Assembly (NCBI GenBank): GCA_903915955.1
Contig: CAIWUU010000110.1
Location: 1 to 41,155 of the forward strand
Reading direction: 5' to 3'
Origin: an uncultured Chlorobiaceae bacterium
GTDB lineage: Bacteria; Bacteroidota; Chlorobiia; Chlorobiales; Chlorobiaceae
DNA length: 41,155 nt
Position numbers and translations under genes: made by a program. How positions within the stretch are numbered: the first letter of the stretch is position 1; every line of letters starts with the position of its first letter. A model generated the notes under the pieces. It saw only the letters and a list, made by a program, of their open reading frames with translations, was not told the origin of the DNA and did not search any database. Below are positions 16,379-33,635 of the stretch, piece after piece.

Positions 16379-17046
16379 GGAGCTTGGGTTAGTTTCCAGT
16401 GATTAAAGCACAATTGATTCTTGACACGGAATGACAGTTTACCTATCGCCGGTCAAAAACACAAAAAACATTGTGCTTTCAACAAACCAACCCTTTACAA
16501 GGCATTGATAAATATTAAAATAAATGGATGCTTGTCTGGAATAATAAGATAAAATTAGATAAATAAAAACGCCATAAAATAACAAATAACAATATTTTAT
16601 ATGCAATAAAAGAGCAAAAAAATAAATAATTACAAATCGTTTATATACATAATAAAATAATCTGATAGGTACAATAATCAAAAATTAATAACACAATAAA
16701 ATTCTAATTACGAAGATTCTATAAAGAAATATTAAACTATAAAGAAACATAATAACAGTAAAAATAAAATTATTAATACAGCAAGTAATAAAATTAGAAA
16801 AGAAAATTATACGCTCAATTAAAATTGAAATAAATAAATAAATACAGAGCAATATAATGCAACTAAACATAGTAATACTTGAAAAAGTATTAAAATTATG
16901 CGGAGTATTATAAATAGTTAAAAACATAAAATTCACATTATCGCAAACACTATATTTAGTTTAAATAAAACAACTTATATTATATTATCTAAAGTTTTTT
17001 TTAGATTATTACAGCGCAATTAACGTGAGGTAATCTTTAAATTTTT

Positions 17047-17093
17047 AATATTAATATACTCGCTCCATAAAATGGCGTATACTTATTAATATT
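17047..17093. repeat. Inverted repeat AATATTAATA/TATTAATATT
   Basis: Perfect 10-bp arms at 17047-17056 and 17084-17093 flank a 27-base centre that can itself pair imperfectly (CCAT AAA ATGG). It could form a cruciform or an RNA hairpin. The AT-only arms mean chance occurrence in this biased region must be considered. Confidence 0.5.
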
Positions 17094-17121
17094 GTAGTGA
17101 TATTTTTTTAAATAAAAAGTA

Positions 17122-17174
17122 AATCAATCATATCATTATCTCTTAACCACAGAGAAACAATAATATGATTGATT
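17122..17174. repeat. Nested inverted repeat, 12-bp outer arms
   Basis: AATCAATCATAT (17122-17133) is the exact reverse complement of ATATGATTGATT (17163-17174). Inside, TCTCT (17139-17143) and AGAGA (17151-17155) form a second stem around TAACCAC. The nested arrangement is stronger than expected for simple AT richness. It may be an RNA structure, a protein site or a relic mobile-element end. Confidence 0.55.
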
Positions 17175-17224
17175 ATTATTTTGATTTTAAATCAGGAATT
17201 TGTAATTATTACTGCGGAATTATC

Positions 17225-17253
17225 ATAAAAGATACAACTACTGTATCTTTTAT
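17225..17253 (-). terminator. Terminator after the RidA-family gene
   Basis: A 12-bp perfect stem (17225-17236 with 17242-17253, core AAAAGATACA/TGTATCTTTT) closes a 5-base loop, with a T-rich 3' arm on either strand. It begins 7 bases past the stop of the minus-strand RidA gene and fits a Rho-independent terminator. Confidence 0.75.
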
Positions 17254-17259
17254 TAATAG

Positions 17260-17739
17260 TTATTGAATAGGAAATTTACACTGCACAATAAGTTCTATTT
17301 CAAGACTTGCGTTGAGTGGTAACTCAGCAACTCCAATAGCACTTCGGGCATGAAAACCTTTATCTTCAAAGAGTTTATGAAGTAATGAAGATGCGCCATT
17401 AGCAACCATATGCTGACTCGAAAAGAGATGATCAGTAGCGACATAAACGGTGAGCTTGACAATTCGCTCAATGCTCGAAAGTGTTCCTGTCAACGATTTA
17501 ATAGCAGCAAGCCCATTGAGAAGAGCAATCCTTGACGCATAGATAGCATCTTCCATGTTGGCATCATTGACCTTGCCCCGCCCTCCCGGCTCTATCAATT
17601 TCCCATCCTGAAGAGGAAGCTGACCGGAGGTAAACACGAGGTTGCCCGTTCGAATAGCGGGAGAATAAAGACCTGCCACAGTTGGCAACTGAGGAAGAAT
17701 GAAACCTTCCTTGATAATTTTTTCTTCAATAATGCCCAT
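17260..17739 (-). CDS. RidA/YjgF family protein
   Basis: This 159-residue protein is of the longer RidA-like type. Family motifs include GNLVFTSGQLPLQDGKL near 32-48, YASRIALLNGLAAIKS near 67-82 and RSAIGVAELPLNASLEIELIV near 134-154. RidA enzymes hydrolyse reactive enamine/imine intermediates formed by PLP enzymes. The arginine in the RSAIGVAELP block matches the usual active-site arginine. The gene reads away from the thiamine operon at 17865, and RidA has known physiological links to thiamine synthesis in enterics. Substrate is inferred. Confidence 0.88.
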   Translation of the reverse strand: MGIIEEKIIKEGFILPQLPTVAGLYSPAIRTGNLVFTSGQLPLQDGKLIEPGGRGKVNDANMEDAIYASRIALLNGLAAIKSLTGTLSSIERIVKLTVYVATDHLFSSQHMVANGASSLLHKLFEDKGFHARSAIGVAELPLNASLEIELIVQCKFPIQ

Positions 17740-26702: not shown

Positions 26703-28150
<1,448 letters not shown>

Positions 28151-28226: not shown

Positions 28227-30659
28227 ATGTTTGCACTGACGGTATCAGAAAAAATTTTCAGAGGGGAGCCGTTTGTTATCAAGCTCCCTGATACGCTGAA
28301 TGACGACATCAAGGCAGGATGTATGGTACTGCTCTCGGTTAAAAATGGAAATGGACGCGTTTCGATTGGCTATATTTTAGCCCTTTTCACCGAAGATAAG
28401 GGAGAGAGTTCGAACATAGAGATATATGACCTCCTTTACAGCGGACGACCTGTCCTGAACCAGGAACTTCTGCAGCTTACCGGGTGGATGGCCGACTACT
28501 ATCTTACCAGGAGAATCGATACGCTGATCTCTGCCCTGCCTGCAGCAGTGAGGACAACCGTTCATGATATTGTTGAAATGACAGGGTTTGCACTGCATGC
28601 AGAAGCCCCCAAAATTATCAATACCTCACTTCGACGCTCAATCATAAAGATGATAAGTGCAGAAAAAAGGCTTACTCTTCCACAACTTCAGCGTCGACTT
28701 GGTAAAAAACAGCTCTATCGCACCCTTGCTGAACTCGAGCGTGGAGGATATCTTCTGCTTTCAAAAAAAATTTCCTCAAGAAAACCGAAACAGAAACTCG
28801 CCTACCGCAACATCCACCCATTGCCGACCGAACTCCATGAGAACCTGAAAATCTCCCCGAAACAGCTCGAGGCATTAAAAGTAATGACCGATCTGCATCC
28901 CGAATACGCTTTCCCTGAAACCATTGGCGCCTCCAGAGAGACATTGAACACTCTTGTAAATAAAGGGTTAACTGAAAAAATTCTTGTTGAGATAACAAGC
29001 AATTTTTCAACCGGCTTTGCAGAAAAAAAACAATCGCCAAAAATCCTGACGGAGTTACAAAAAAAAGCACTTGAGCAGCTCCGGTACTCTTTTGAAGAAC
29101 AAAAGTACCACACCTTTCTCCTGCACGGCGTTACAGGCAGTGGTAAAACACTGGTGTATATAGAATTTCTGAAAACAGTTCTTGCCGCTGGCAAGACGGC
29201 AATTGTGCTGGTGCCTGAAATAGCCCTGACACCACAAACGGCCAGCCGCTTTTGTGAACATTTTCATGATGAAATCACCATCATGCACAGCGCCATGAGT
29301 GACCAGGAAAAATATGATGGCTGGCAAAGCCTCCAGCAGGGAAAAACAAAAATTGCCCTTGGGGCCCGATCGACCATTTTCGCTCCTCTCGAAAACCTTG
29401 GTGCAATCATTGTTGATGAGGAGCACGACGGAGCCTATAAACAAGACCGCAATCCCCGCTACAATGCGCGGGATACGGCTGTCATGAGAGCAATGCTCAA
29501 CAAGGCGATCTGCGTACTCGGCTCGGCCACACCTTCATTCGAATCTTACCATAACGCACGAACCGGTAAATATACCCTTCTCAATCTGCTCGAACGGGTC
29601 GATGGTGCAACCATGCCAGTGATACGTCTTGTCTGGATGAGAGAGAGTCCAAAGGCCTCAGCATCAATTTCGGAGCTGCTTTACCGGCAGATCGCCCTTC
29701 GTCTTGAACGAGACGAGCAGATTATTCTCCTGCAGAACAGGCGCGGGTTTGCCGGAAGCATCTTTTGCCTGACCTGTGGTCATATCCCCCTCTGCAAGTT
29801 TTGCAACATTCCCCTTGTCTACCATGCCGCCCAAAAACATCTCCGCTGTCACTACTGTGGCCATATTGAACACTACACGGCATCATGCAAGATATGTGCA
29901 TCAACAGAGCTTTTTTTTAAAAGCAGTGGCACTGAGCGGATCGAAGAGGAGCTGCAAACGCTTTTCCCTGAAGAGAAAATTCTCAGGATGGATGTCGATA
30001 CAACGACCACAAAAGGCTCCCACGGACGAATTCTGAAAGAGTTTCACGATCGCAAAGCCCGAATCCTGCTCGGTACCCAGATGGTAGCCAAAGGGCTCGA
30101 TTTCCCCGCCGTTACCCTTGTTGGAGTTCTTATGGCAGATATCGGACTTAATATCCCCGACTTCAGGGCCTCAGAACGGGTCTTTTCGTTACTCACGCAG
30201 GTGGCTGGACGCGCTGGACGCGCCGCAATGCCTGGTGAAGTCTATCTGCAAGTATACAACAAGGAGAGCGATGTCTTCAACGCCATTCTGCAGGGTAGTT
30301 ATGAAAAGTTCTTTCTACAGGAGAGTGCTACAAGAGCGGAACTACACTACCCGCCCGCATCCCGTCTCATAAAATTTGAATGCACCGCAGAGGATGAAAA
30401 AGAGGCTGAAACCGCCGCACTTTACTGCAAAGAGAGCCTGGCAAAACACCTTCCGGCAGAGAGCGGAACCATTCTTGGCCCGGCACCTGCAGGCATCGCA
30501 AAAATAAGAAATCGCTACCGCTACCACGTGCTCGTTAAACTTGTAACAGGAAAACTCTCTTCACTGTTTATCAAACAGATGAGCGACGACATAACTGCAC
30601 GCTTCCGCTCCTCAGGGCTCATTTTCATGATTGATGTTGATCCTCAAAACCTGATGTAG
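28227..30659 (+). CDS. priA: Primosomal protein N' (replication restart helicase PriA)
   Basis: PriA recognises stalled forks and reloads the replisome. The 810-residue protein has an N-terminal DNA-binding part (about 1-260), Walker A HGVTGSGKT near 300-308, the DEEHDGAYKQ Walker B box near 397, and helicase motif VAGRAGRA near 660. Paired zinc-binding cysteines run from CLTCGH near 513 to CKICAS near 556. Length is typical. Immediately upstream is the adk terminator. Confidence 0.97.
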   Translation: MFALTVSEKIFRGEPFVIKLPDTLNDDIKAGCMVLLSVKNGNGRVSIGYILALFTEDKGESSNIEIYDLLYSGRPVLNQELLQLTGWMADYYLTRRIDTLISALPAAVRTTVHDIVEMTGFALHAEAPKIINTSLRRSIIKMISAEKRLTLPQLQRRLGKKQLYRTLAELERGGYLLLSKKISSRKPKQKLAYRNIHPLPTELHENLKISPKQLEALKVMTDLHPEYAFPETIGASRETLNTLVNKGLTEKILVEITSNFSTGFAEKKQSPKILTELQKKALEQLRYSFEEQKYHTFLLHGVTGSGKTLVYIEFLKTVLAAGKTAIVLVPEIALTPQTASRFCEHFHDEITIMHSAMSDQEKYDGWQSLQQGKTKIALGARSTIFAPLENLGAIIVDEEHDGAYKQDRNPRYNARDTAVMRAMLNKAICVLGSATPSFESYHNARTGKYTLLNLLERVDGATMPVIRLVWMRESPKASASISELLYRQIALRLERDEQIILLQNRRGFAGSIFCLTCGHIPLCKFCNIPLVYHAAQKHLRCHYCGHIEHYTASCKICASTELFFKSSGTERIEEELQTLFPEEKILRMDVDTTTTKGSHGRILKEFHDRKARILLGTQMVAKGLDFPAVTLVGVLMADIGLNIPDFRASERVFSLLTQVAGRAGRAAMPGEVYLQVYNKESDVFNAILQGSYEKFFLQESATRAELHYPPASRLIKFECTAEDEKEAETAALYCKESLAKHLPAESGTILGPAPAGIAKIRNRYRYHVLVKLVTGKLSSLFIKQMSDDITARFRSSGLIFMIDVDPQNLM

Positions 30660-30852
30660 AAAAAGTTGCTGCCACTGAAGCAGAGAGGATTATTGAACTT
30701 CAATAAATTACTGTAAATTATAAACCATTACCCTGTGGCAGAGCCTCAGAGTCTGCGTTCATGTTTGGGAATTGCTTAACGAAGCAAAGCTTTGAGGAAT
30801 GTGTCATAGAGCGATTCAATGCTTTATAACAACGAGATAAAGGATAAAGGAC
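30660..30852 (+). promoter_or_regulatory. Regulatory region and leader of the DUF2589 cluster
   Basis: This 193-bp gap precedes the DUF2589 genes. It contains a perfect 17-bp palindrome (30691-30707) and a potential RNA structure (30744-30797). A purine-rich AAAGGATAAAGGA stretch immediately before the ATG at 30853 is one of the better ribosome-binding sites in the window. I could not place -35/-10 boxes firmly. Confidence 0.5.
30691..30707. promoter_or_regulatory. 17-bp perfect palindrome (operator-like)
   Basis: TTATTGAA, a single C, then TTCAATAA: arms of eight with a one-base centre, the usual geometry for a dimeric regulator site. It lies 146 bases before the first DUF2589 gene and 32 after priA. 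It has too few GC pairs and too small a centre to be a convincing terminator. Confidence 0.5.
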
Positions 30853-31482
30853 ATGGCTGATACTCTTACAGCTTCTGGCGAAATCCCTGGCGCAGCTTCA
30901 GAGATCTCCCTTTCGCAGGCAATCCTTGCGCCATTGGATGCTCTCTTCAAAGCTCAGGTGCATTCGGCGCGAAGTTTCCTCAATCTTCTGCTCCAGATTG
31001 GTTATCCGCACGTACAGCTTGATAAAGATGGCAACCCGGATAAAGAGCAATTACAGTCGAAAACCTGTTATACCCAGGATTTCGATTATACCGACGATGA
31101 AGGGCATAGCGTCACCATTTCAATGCCATCACTTGCGCTGATTCCTATTGCTCCATTGAGCATAGACAACGCAAGTTTCAAATTCAATTTTAACGTGCAG
31201 AGTACATCATCCCATTCCCAGATTCAAAGTTCAGAAGATGGCGTTACCGATCAAGAAGAGAGTTTTGCCAAGAATAAGCGTCCATGGTATCTCGTTGACG
31301 AGCCAAAAAGTTTCAAAGGCACAGTAGCTCCCTCAGCAAATGAGAGTTCTTCATCCTCACAAAGTCAATCAAGCATGATTAATATTGAAATTACCCTCTC
31401 CAAACAGCCGCTCCCTTCCGGTCTCGATAAATTGCTGACTGCGCTGCAACAATCGACCAAAATCATAGATCGTGGCAAGTAA
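30853..31482 (+). CDS. DUF2589 domain-containing protein 1
   Basis: This 209-residue protein of unknown function matches the DUF2589 pattern. An N-terminal amphipathic helical block (ISLSQAILAPLDALFKAQ near 20-37) is followed by strands ending VTISMPSLALIPIAPLSIDN near 77-96. A polar, serine-rich stretch near 161-175 precedes a C-terminal motif INIEITLSKQPLPSGLDKLL. The second DUF2589 protein repeats the same order. There is no signal peptide or membrane helix. It has a good purine-rich ribosome-binding site and leads a three-gene plus-strand cluster. Biochemical role unknown. Confidence 0.8.
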   Translation: MADTLTASGEIPGAASEISLSQAILAPLDALFKAQVHSARSFLNLLLQIGYPHVQLDKDGNPDKEQLQSKTCYTQDFDYTDDEGHSVTISMPSLALIPIAPLSIDNASFKFNFNVQSTSSHSQIQSSEDGVTDQEESFAKNKRPWYLVDEPKSFKGTVAPSANESSSSSQSQSSMINIEITLSKQPLPSGLDKLLTALQQSTKIIDRGK

Positions 31483-31542
31483 CAACAGCCGAACAACATG
31501 AAAACTGGCACTGCAGATTCCAACCATTAAACATGAAATAAT

Positions 31543-32136
31543 ATGGCAAGCACAACTCTTACCGATATTGGAGTTCAGGCTCTTCCCCTTGAATTCATTA
31601 TCTCTGCACCGTTACTCGGAGTCATCAACGCACAGAAAATTGCCGCCCAGGCAACGCTTGATTTTATAAACACCTTCAAAGATCAAACCGTCGAATTGAA
31701 CACCACCAGCACCACTGCTGGTCAGACATCAACTATCTCGGTGAAAGCACCACTGCTTGCCATGATTCCGGTGCCCCACCTTCGGATTGATTCATTTACC
31801 ACACATTTCAAGTATGAGATAAGCCAGGTTGCAAGCGAGAAAAAAAACAGGGAAATGGGGGGCAGCGCTGAGGCCGGAACAACCGGATTATGGTCTAATT
31901 TTGTCAATGCCTCCCTCAAGGGTAATGTTTCAAGCCAGTCCTCCTCAGAATCGGTCATGAACCGCAGTGGAGTTCTCGAAATCACCGTCAACGCCAGTGA
32001 AGCTCCCATTCCTGAAGGTCTTGCAAGGATGCTTAACCTTTTGGGTAAAACAATTCCCGCTGAGCTTCCTCTCAACACAACTCCAGCAGAGCCATCCGTA
32101 TCTCCCGAACAAGAACCCGCAGAAAACAAGGGATGA
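31543..32136 (+). CDS. DUF2589 domain-containing protein 2
   Basis: A 197-residue paralogue of its neighbour: helical start (LPLEFIISAPLLGVINAQ near 15-32), then VKAPLLAMIPVPHLRIDS near 67-84, matching the SMPSLALIPIAPLSIDN block of protein 1. The C-terminal motif LEITVNASEAPIPEGLARML aligns with the end of protein 1. A proline/glutamate-rich tail follows. It is cytosolic by appearance. Its stop overlaps the start of the third gene (ATGA). The 60-bp gap to the first gene has no terminator. Confidence 0.8.
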   Translation: MASTTLTDIGVQALPLEFIISAPLLGVINAQKIAAQATLDFINTFKDQTVELNTTSTTAGQTSTISVKAPLLAMIPVPHLRIDSFTTHFKYEISQVASEKKNREMGGSAEAGTTGLWSNFVNASLKGNVSSQSSSESVMNRSGVLEITVNASEAPIPEGLARMLNLLGKTIPAELPLNTTPAEPSVSPEQEPAENKG

Positions 32137-32549
32137 AAACGACTTACCTGACACTGCAGCAGATCAGCGAAAGAGTTCTTTCGGAACTTTTGCTTTCAAG
32201 AACAGATTTTCTGCTGCTTCAGGCCCAGGTATGGAAGAACATCAATGATGCCGCAAAAGAGAGCGGCGTTTTTGTACAACCCAATACTCTTGACCTTGGC
32301 CGCACGACATTTGAGTTTTGCATTGCCCGCAAAATTCCGAATTTTACGGAAAAGGTCATAAACTTTTTTCGAAAATCTGCCAATAAAAAGCCGCATTTCA
32401 GACTTTGTGACCATCAGAACAAAGAGGGGATAAAAGTGACAATCTCCATCTGTCCACAATCAGAAAAGGAGTGCAGCCCGGAGATCAGAACAGAACCTGA
32501 AATGACATCAAAACCGGATGAGACATACGTGGCTGGTTTGGATATATGA
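32133..32549 (+). CDS. Small protein translationally coupled to DUF2589 pair
   Basis: I do not recognise this 138-residue protein. It opens with a helical segment ([20 protein letters not shown]) and continues with mixed strands to GIKVTISICPQSEKE, an arrangement loosely like the DUF2589 proteins but without their MIP-type motif. The acidic tail is probably disordered. It starts inside the stop of the second DUF2589 gene, so equal production is likely. It ends 10 bases from a convergent phosphoesterase gene. Confidence 0.65.
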   Translation: MKTTYLTLQQISERVLSELLLSRTDFLLLQAQVWKNINDAAKESGVFVQPNTLDLGRTTFEFCIARKIPNFTEKVINFFRKSANKKPHFRLCDHQNKEGIKVTISICPQSEKECSPEIRTEPEMTSKPDETYVAGLDI

Positions 32550-32558
32550 CGGTTCAGC

Positions 32559-33635
32559 TCAAGCAAGAAGACGAATGCGGGAAAAAACATAGTCAAGCGA
32601 GTCCTCATTCAGAACCACCCGTGAGAAGCCTGTCGAACCGAGCTCCGTTGGCTGGTTATTACGGTCACTGGTAAACTTGCGACTCTGTTTGCCGTTGTAC
32701 CAATAGACCAGCCGAATCTTGTTTCCCTCAATTTCGAGAGCGGTAATACCTCGCTTGCCAATAGTGCAACCAGAGTTGAAAATACTTGGGATAGTGATCG
32801 TATTGTACCGACCACTTCGCAATCCTATTTTCTTGCCCTTCGTGTAACAAGCCTCAAGTTCAATTTTCAGTGAAGCAATGGTCTGCTCAATAAAGGCGCG
32901 ATACTCACCCTCGGCTGTTGGATAGGCACGGCAAAGCTCCTCAATTCTGAAGTTCAGCAAATCAACCTTTGAGAGTGATTCAAACAGCGACCTGTGGGTA
33001 TGCCCAATTATAGAGACAATTTTGGCCTGGTTTGAAAATTCATAAATCGACTTCTCAATGGCAAAGCGTCGAGGGCTGTTGTATGCTTTGGAAAAATTCC
33101 TGATGCCGACAGGTTTTGCTATGTAGCGGATAAAAAAAATAATAGCTCGGCTGACCATCGGATAGGTCTCCCACAACAGCTCCGATGCCTGATGACCATG
33201 AAAAAGCAGAAGAGTTTCATTGCCATAATGAAACTTCAAAGAATTAACCATTGAAGAGGCAAGCCTGTACTCCCTCTCCTCCATCAACGCGGCATCATGG
33301 TTGCCATAGGTTTTCAACAAAAAGCCATTCAACTCAAACTTGAGAAACAGATCATACAACTCCCCCCATTCAGAGACAATACTGTCAAGAGGGAATTTGA
33401 AAAGTTCTTCGATATCACCATTCAAAACAAGACTATATTTTTCAGGCAAATAGTAGCTGCCAAGCATGGTTCTGACCAGTTCAGCATTGCGCTTGAACTC
33501 GTCGCGTCGCCCTCCATTACCCATGTGCAGATCACTGAGAATGAGTACTTTCGACGAAGAATCAAGAGTAATTGGCTTTGCTGTTTTCAGCAGATGCTCA
33601 AGATAAGGGTGTTTCTTGTTATGATGAAGCCTCAT
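32559..33635 (-). CDS. Calcineurin-like metallophosphoesterase
   Basis: This 358-residue protein holds all five metallophosphoesterase blocks: SDLHMG near 33-38, NGDIEE near 72-77, YGNHD near 110-114, FHGH near 146-149, and IIGHTHR near 209-215. Together these bind two metals. Substrate could be a nucleotide, lipid pyrophosphate or phosphoprotein and is not readable. There is no signal peptide. It faces the DUF2589 cluster tail-to-tail, so it shares no promoter with it. Confidence 0.85.
   Translation of the reverse strand: MRLHHNKKHPYLEHLLKTAKPITLDSSSKVLILSDLHMGNGGRRDEFKRNAELVRTMLGSYYLPEKYSLVLNGDIEELFKFPLDSIVSEWGELYDLFLKFELNGFLLKTYGNHDAALMEEREYRLASSMVNSLKFHYGNETLLLFHGHQASELLWETYPMVSRAIIFFIRYIAKPVGIRNFSKAYNSPRRFAIEKSIYEFSNQAKIVSIIGHTHRSLFESLSKVDLLNFRIEELCRAYPTAEGEYRAFIEQTIASLKIELEACYTKGKKIGLRSGRYNTITIPSIFNSGCTIGKRGITALEIEGNKIRLVYWYNGKQSRKFTSDRNNQPTELGSTGFSRVVLNEDSLDYVFSRIRLLA

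Follow-up and report, generated by a model that had tools for sequence, protein, structure and literature searches.

Three genes lying between priA and a convergent phosphoesterase gene of an uncultured Chlorobiaceae bacterium appear, from sequence comparisons, to be a variant of a DUF2589 gene cluster. Two of them encode DUF2589 proteins and the third a small partner, all three are kept under purifying selection, and the whole operon is either present or absent at one genomic site. In other bacteria, DUF2589 genes occur in multigene clusters linked to unrelated genes of endolysin type. Our tentative reading, which we consider quite possible rather than probable, is that DUF2589 proteins, those of the trio included, may form heteromeric modules, either carriers or membrane-active, that serve envelope-active enzymes lacking secretion signals.

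The DUF2589 Trio

The window, i.e., the whole stretch of 41,155 nucleotides that was analysed, belongs to a genome (G000) of 2.52 Mb in 201 contigs, whose gene content resembles that of a green sulfur bacterium and in which g1 and g2 are the sole DUF2589 genes. The three open reading frames of the trio, g1 (positions 30853-31482, 209 amino acids), g2 (31543-32136, 197 amino acids) and g3 (32133-32549, 138 amino acids), are all located on the forward strand, and the stop codon of g2 overlaps the start codon of g3 in an ATGA sequence (32133-32136, forward strand), as a preliminary description of this DNA had reported. Upstream of the trio is priA (28227-30659, forward strand); downstream, a calcineurin-like phosphoesterase (metallophosphoesterase) gene is transcribed convergently (32559-33635, reverse strand). 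The segment at positions 30660-32558, between the priA stop (30659) and the phosphoesterase gene, is assigned to no strand. Here and below, gene calls are mechanical open reading frames, which are noisy in GC-rich loci.

Both g1 and g2 are A-type DUF2589 proteins that match PF11655 over nearly the whole profile, with 63.3 bits for g1 (E 4.5e-17, residues 20-201) and 80.5 bits for g2 (E 2.2e-22, residues 15-169), the curated cut-off being 23 bits. Their homology to each other is supported by hhalign (94%), and the alignment contains the internal block (LALIPIAPLSID in g1, LLAMIPVPHLRID in g2) and the C-terminal motif (PLPSGLDKLL and PIPEGLARML, respectively) that had been noticed earlier as common to these tandem paralogues.

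The proteins had been described as lacking signal peptides and, indeed, neither a Sec-type N-terminus nor a clear transmembrane segment was found in g1, g2 or g3: over 19 residues, the Kyte-Doolittle mean peaks at 1.67 (in g2), with lower values in the g1 N-terminus and in g3. As can be seen from alignments, A-type proteins start with an amphipathic, very conserved helix (IGGPLxAAxxAQxxAAxxTxxFI), which is only mildly hydrophobic and is followed by a small beta domain. The structure models are of low confidence. The AF2 model of g2 (mean pLDDT 55) contains a helix at residues 16-45, five strands and a helix at residues 158-170; compared with the PDB, it gave no fold match with E below 0.17 and no holin, pore former or carrier. 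One viral predicted structure that carries no name, A0A516L4Y6, matches this model at 7.5e-5, and a search for solved structures related to DUF2589 found none. Weak PDB and NCBIfam matches of g2 to CsgF (E 0.01-0.5) were judged to be due to chance.

The 193-bp region between priA and g1 (30660-30852, forward strand), where a ribosome-binding-like sequence, AAGGATAAAGGAC, precedes g1, had been taken for a regulatory region of the trio's own. That idea was abandoned because of weak intergenic conservation (the region aligns badly with its homologue in genome G201), a chance-level number of promoter-like matches with none of σ70 type on the forward strand, and the lack of an Rfam match.

Two other places in the window were recorded in passing. 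In a stretch of ca. 0.9 kb (16380-17260), flanked by two divergently unrelated genes, the GC content falls to 18-23% versus ca. 46% around it. Between rlmN and adk, a 263-amino-acid protein with no Pfam match (26703-27494), conserved in relatives at 62-97%, is a fast-evolving neighbour of housekeeping genes.

Conservation and Site Occupancy of the Trio

Among 86 genomes from the bacterial family, three (the window's own, G199 and G201) keep the trio in the same order and at the same site, and in each of them g3 directly follows g1-g2. Identity to the window proteins in G199 and G201, respectively, is 96% and 82% for g1, 93% and 87% for g2, and 91% and 52% for g3, whose position is the same; the g2/g3 overlap is also retained in both genomes (loci L029 and L030). 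Values of dN/dS are 0.06-0.07 for g1, 0.07-0.09 for g2 and 0.20-0.24 for g3, which indicates purifying selection on all three, and the dS of the trio is similar to that of the flanking priA. It thus follows that the trio consists of coding genes that are being maintained and are as old as their flanks; this includes g3, whose product had been listed earlier as small and unrecognised.

In genomes G163, G185 and G183, priA and the phosphoesterase gene are separated by only ca. 60-75 bp and the trio is missing; the three genes are thus either all there or all missing. By priA, G163 and G185 are nearer relatives of the window than G201. The simplest interpretation is an old block that has been lost repeatedly, with horizontal replacement as a less economical alternative. 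An accidental grouping of g3 with g1-g2 would suit the restriction of g3 to three genomes and its evolving faster than g1 and g2; however, g3 is found only where g1-g2 occur, in the same order, and is absent together with them from closer relatives, which makes an accident very improbable. We conclude that g3 is a real partner of g1-g2, in this small clade only; the A-A-g3 order was not seen outside the three genomes.

Identity of g3

Searches for g3 in Pfam, NCBIfam, PHROG and PADLOC gave nothing of weight, the only PADLOC match being a sub-threshold one to Specificity_I (E 0.017). A profile search of 394 genomes of the phylum retrieved the three orthologues and noise. In its AF2 model, a helix (residues 8-43), two short strands (48-50 and 59-64), a second helix (71-80) and a last strand (99-105) follow one another; the order of elements, in which a long helix at the N-terminus precedes a short hairpin and a final strand, is that of DUF2589 proteins, in a model whose pLDDT of 44 is too poor for a fold search.

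Homology of g3 to the A family or to the B family, the partner of DUF2589 proteins in Bacteroidota (see below), was rejected, as the scores were not above those of shuffles, and g3 is not detectably a B or a C protein. Against the profile of B', the DUF2589 protein that accompanies A in pseudomonadotal clusters, the hhalign score of g3 beats 293 of 300 column shuffles (7/300 reach it; p ~0.02), and the g3 sequence VQPNTLDLGRTTFEF aligns with the B' motif PxNSLxIKxxxxxF in the expected register. These alignments are only suggestive of homology to B'. In genome G179, the corresponding third gene encodes a clear DUF2589 protein of 151 amino acids (2.5e-14). We regard g3, a small third subunit assigned to no family and possibly a reduced B'-type partner, as a reduced subunit of the DUF2589 type, probable rather than proven.

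DUF2589 Clusters in Other Genomes

When the genome collection was scanned with a Bacteroidota-type protein, 204 relatives were retrieved, and 80 loci were kept. They come from Bacteroidota and allies (Tenacibaculum, Flavobacterium, Chryseobacterium, Balneolia and Ignavibacteria) and from Gammaproteobacteria (Rheinheimera, Lysobacter and others). In Bacteroidota, a conserved operon was revealed that encodes a DUF2589 protein (A), a protein of ca. 234 amino acids with no Pfam match (B) and a helical protein of ca. 184 amino acids, also with no Pfam match (C). Clustering of neighbours at 91 loci placed A in 82, B in 78 and C in 78 (62 + 16). This A-B-C operon is described here and was not found in the papers searched. 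It resembles the trio in that a DUF2589 gene is followed by small genes on the same strand, and in the helix-plus-beta architecture of the products; it differs in that the window has two DUF2589 genes, no B and no C.

The usual form in Pseudomonadota is two tandem DUF2589 genes (B' and A), as in the trio, often accompanied by a conserved D protein of ca. 90 amino acids. In the window, g3 takes the third slot of the operon, which in pseudomonadotal clusters is filled either by D or by a lysin or a further DUF2589 gene; the window contains neither D nor a lysin. The D protein (VRHVERIVIGRYNPN...YHIGFRRKP) was seen beside the pairs at L121, L122, L124, L198-L200, L243, L244 and L248-L252. One member that was scanned had no Pfam match, and we know of no described family to which D belongs.

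DUF2589 clusters are rare, being detected in 9 of 148 genomes of a phylum sample and 9 of 398 genomes of Pseudomonadota. In sampled clusters with enough DNA, each DUF2589 gene adjoins at least one relative or a B partner. By the earlier criterion, under which lack of a conserved third gene beside DUF2589 genes would make the grouping accidental, the answer is divided: a close relative of g3 occurs beside g1-g2 in three genomes only, yet some third or partner gene (B and C in Bacteroidota, B' and D in Pseudomonadota) is the rule of the family. The near-constant presence of a relative or partner likewise agrees with the cytosolic multi-subunit assembly that had been suggested; the serine-rich stretches invoked for it are present, with no function given to them.

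The family as a whole is widespread but patchy, being found in Chlorobiota, Bacteroidota, Pseudomonadota, other bacteria and archaea, and has no assigned function. A phage origin was rejected: there was no PHROG match, and phage records were negative except for one unverified 4-kb metagenomic contig, with one match in viral_contigs. The literature searched describes no function for DUF2589 and contains one passing mention, which does not contradict the earlier view that the system is undescribed: in Archaeoglobus, the four DUF2589-related genes AF0414-AF0417 are induced on lactate (PMC3949148).

Several unusual loci were also encountered. L008, L009 and L010 (genomes G129, G015 and G056, of the same genus) share a block of ca. 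300-365 bp, 90-92% identical, encoding a protein of ca. 96 amino acids in which nothing of DUF2589 is present but the motif of the N-terminal helix (MEDQFRGLPMADLIGGPLQAACEAQMRLAE...), joined to an unrelated tail; since the context of L008 differs from that of L009 and L010, the block may be a dispersed element or a remnant. At L031 (5159-6748, reverse strand), a DUF2589 domain is fused to Big_1-type Ig-like repeats in a protein of 529 amino acids, which suggests an extended or surface-like version. Small zinc-ribbon proteins follow DUF2589 clusters at L253 (5398-6086), L255 (5341-6448), L256 (5018-6165), L035 (9001-9318) and L031 (3081-3314), and two more unassigned small genes come after them at L255 and L256.

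Enzyme Genes Beside DUF2589 Clusters

A gene for an endolysin-type peptidoglycan hydrolase was found beside 13 of 59 sampled clusters, on the same strand in every case and within ca. 2 kb; one Chryseobacterium and one Tenacibaculum representative were counted, and these counts are uncorrected for phylogeny. As judged by Pfam and PHROGs, the lysins belong to at least seven unrelated families: M15, matching a PHROG endolysin, together with a patatin at 19 Chryseobacterium loci (M15 also at L203); CHAP at Tenacibaculum L041, L042, L043 and L047; Phage_lysozyme GH24 at L199 and L249 and, by similarity, L123; pesticin-type at L250 and L252; GH19 at L198 and L201; N-acetylmuramidase at L122; Amidase_3, with a Tle1-like lipase, at L200; and LysM with a VgrG3-like lysozyme domain at L243. 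The genes can be tightly packed. The lysin gene overlaps B' by 17 bp at L123, starts 27 bp after B' at L201, and ends 10 bp (L249) or 3 bp (L252) before B'. All seven lysins tested match phage endolysin or tail-lysozyme families. The lysins have no evident secretion signals; among the N-termini listed, a hydrophobic start is present only in the M15 protein of L037, upstream of an internal methionine which appears to be the real start.

The hypothesis on lysins arose from the first forty loci, and the remaining 19 clusters (L243-L261), fetched afterwards, repeated the pattern in 4 of 19. Several endolysin families (PHROGs) were present among 148 proximal genes; among 147 distal genes located >1.5 kb away at these loci, a small control, no endolysin appeared in the 25 of 26 PHROG families listed (1e-18). 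The proximal-distal contrast, modest alone, gave Fisher p values of 0.015 for the first set (6/148) and 0.023 for the second (4/95). For a base rate, 35 Phage_lysozyme matches were counted in 99 genomes of one order (ca. 340 Mb). Two of the 35, the best included, adjoin the 8 DUF2589 clusters of these genomes, where ca. 0.005 would be expected (Poisson p ~1e-5, for a lysin family picked after the loci were seen).

In other clusters, a phospholipase, a subtilase or a small His/Cys protein joins or replaces the lysin. A subtilase and a 67-amino-acid protein are located beside 15 clusters, including that of the distant Petrimonas. The His/Cys protein (121-142 amino acids; L034, 8597-9025, and L031, 2631-2996) has conserved, dyad-like IAHG(N) and STC motifs and no Pfam match, and occurs in two of the 86 family genomes (G179 and G151), both times beside DUF2589 genes. 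Two toxin-like genes were also observed: a large toxin-complex-like gene (SpvB/TcdB2-type by eye) adjoins the A-B-C operon at L040 (2622-6818), and a gene annotated with a TcdA/TcdB-type glycosyltransferase domain lies near the DUF2589 pair of a Vibrio plasmid (L121, 1-920).

Not every cluster has such a neighbour. No endolysin, lipase or protease gene is adjacent to the trio in the window, G199 or G201, and most A-B-C clusters (Rheinheimera, Flavobacterium and most Tenacibaculum) have none nearby either. That many clusters stand alone, that transmembrane segments and signals are missing and that Archaeoglobus AF0414-AF0417 respond to a growth substrate (PMC3949148) would all suit an intracellular scaffold or storage structure with no tie to lysis, the lysins being coincidental or regulatory neighbours. 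Same-strand linkage in 13 of 13 cases, sometimes with overlap, to seven or more unrelated lysin families argues against a coincidence, and we consider such a structure unlikely.

The same enzymes could instead be effectors rather than the producer's own lysins, with DUF2589 proteins acting as adaptors that shield antibacterial effectors or load them into an existing injection machine such as type VI secretion. Several are of classic interbacterial types (the Tle1-like lipase and Amidase_3 that share an operon at L200, the VgrG3-like lysozyme at L243, pesticin-type proteins at L250 and L252, and the muramidase), and small periplasmic or lipoprotein-like genes near L122, L243 and L249 are possible immunity genes. 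Yet the flanks examined contain no structural genes of an injection machine, and DUF2589 is present in groups such as Chlorobium, with no such machine seen in the window. An adaptor role of this kind appears rather doubtful.

Still less likely, in our view, is anti-phage defence, in which A and B subunits would sense infection and a patatin, caspase-like protein, subtilase or lysin would kill the cell. The patatin neighbours do score as CBASS-type effector phospholipases (6.5e-61), and patchy presence with a precise empty site is typical of accessory immunity genes. However, endolysins are not usual abortive effectors, the clusters sit among housekeeping genes, and the flank-like dS of the trio indicates vertical inheritance and loss, not rapid turnover. 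None of g1, g2, A, B and the His/Cys protein matched a PADLOC model, g3 and C gave only sub-threshold matches, and the trio was accordingly rejected as a known defence system.

A Possible Carrier for Signal-Less Enzymes

Phage endolysins made without secretion signals need help to reach the cell wall. Since the lysins found here are signal-less in the same way and have a constant DUF2589 partner, we propose a carrier or membrane-active assembly. In the case of the trio, g1, g2 and g3 would be subunits of one heteromeric DUF2589-type assembly, the operon supplying two A-type chains, each with a long amphipathic N-terminal helix and then a small beta domain, and one small third chain. We infer that such assemblies may act in the cytosol as carriers, or as membrane-active partners, of endolysin-type peptidoglycan hydrolases, phospholipases and proteases that attack the envelope, either holding these enzymes or letting them cross the inner membrane. 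The outcome might be a lysis-type release, as in type 10 secretion, or an attack on other cells. For the trio, which has no adjacent enzyme, this role is transferred from its relatives; its cargo, if any, would be encoded elsewhere, or g3 may play a different part.

The closest comparison is with the lysis cluster of Yersinia entomophaga, a type 10 secretion or phage-like lysis cassette under a PhoB-like regulator (PMC10101115). Relatives of the trio share with it a signal-less endolysin, OmpR/PhoB-type regulators adjoining the cluster (L031, L034 and L200) and, as we suspect, a small membrane-active partner. Unlike that cassette, they have no holin with transmembrane helices (1.67 being the Kyte-Doolittle maximum of the trio), spanins were not noticed in them, and the trio has neither an endolysin nor a regulator in the window. 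The trio itself was rejected as a holin-endolysin cassette for want of transmembrane segments and of a lysin in the window, G199 or G201. In a bolder and less likely version of the carrier proposal, DUF2589 clusters would be an undescribed modular envelope-crossing system, in which a conserved set of helix-plus-beta subunits replaces the holin or injection apparatus and handles signal-less hydrolases that are interchangeable (lysins of seven or more unrelated families, phospholipases and proteases). The trio would then be a reduced version of this system, working together either with g3 or with cargo from another locus.

The occurrence of non-homologous lysins in the same neighbourhood across unrelated lineages is a strong pointer to function, since activity, and not ancestry, is all that they have in common. 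The linkage gives DUF2589, a family without a function, a first testable role, which can be addressed by expressing the genes in combinations of two or three.
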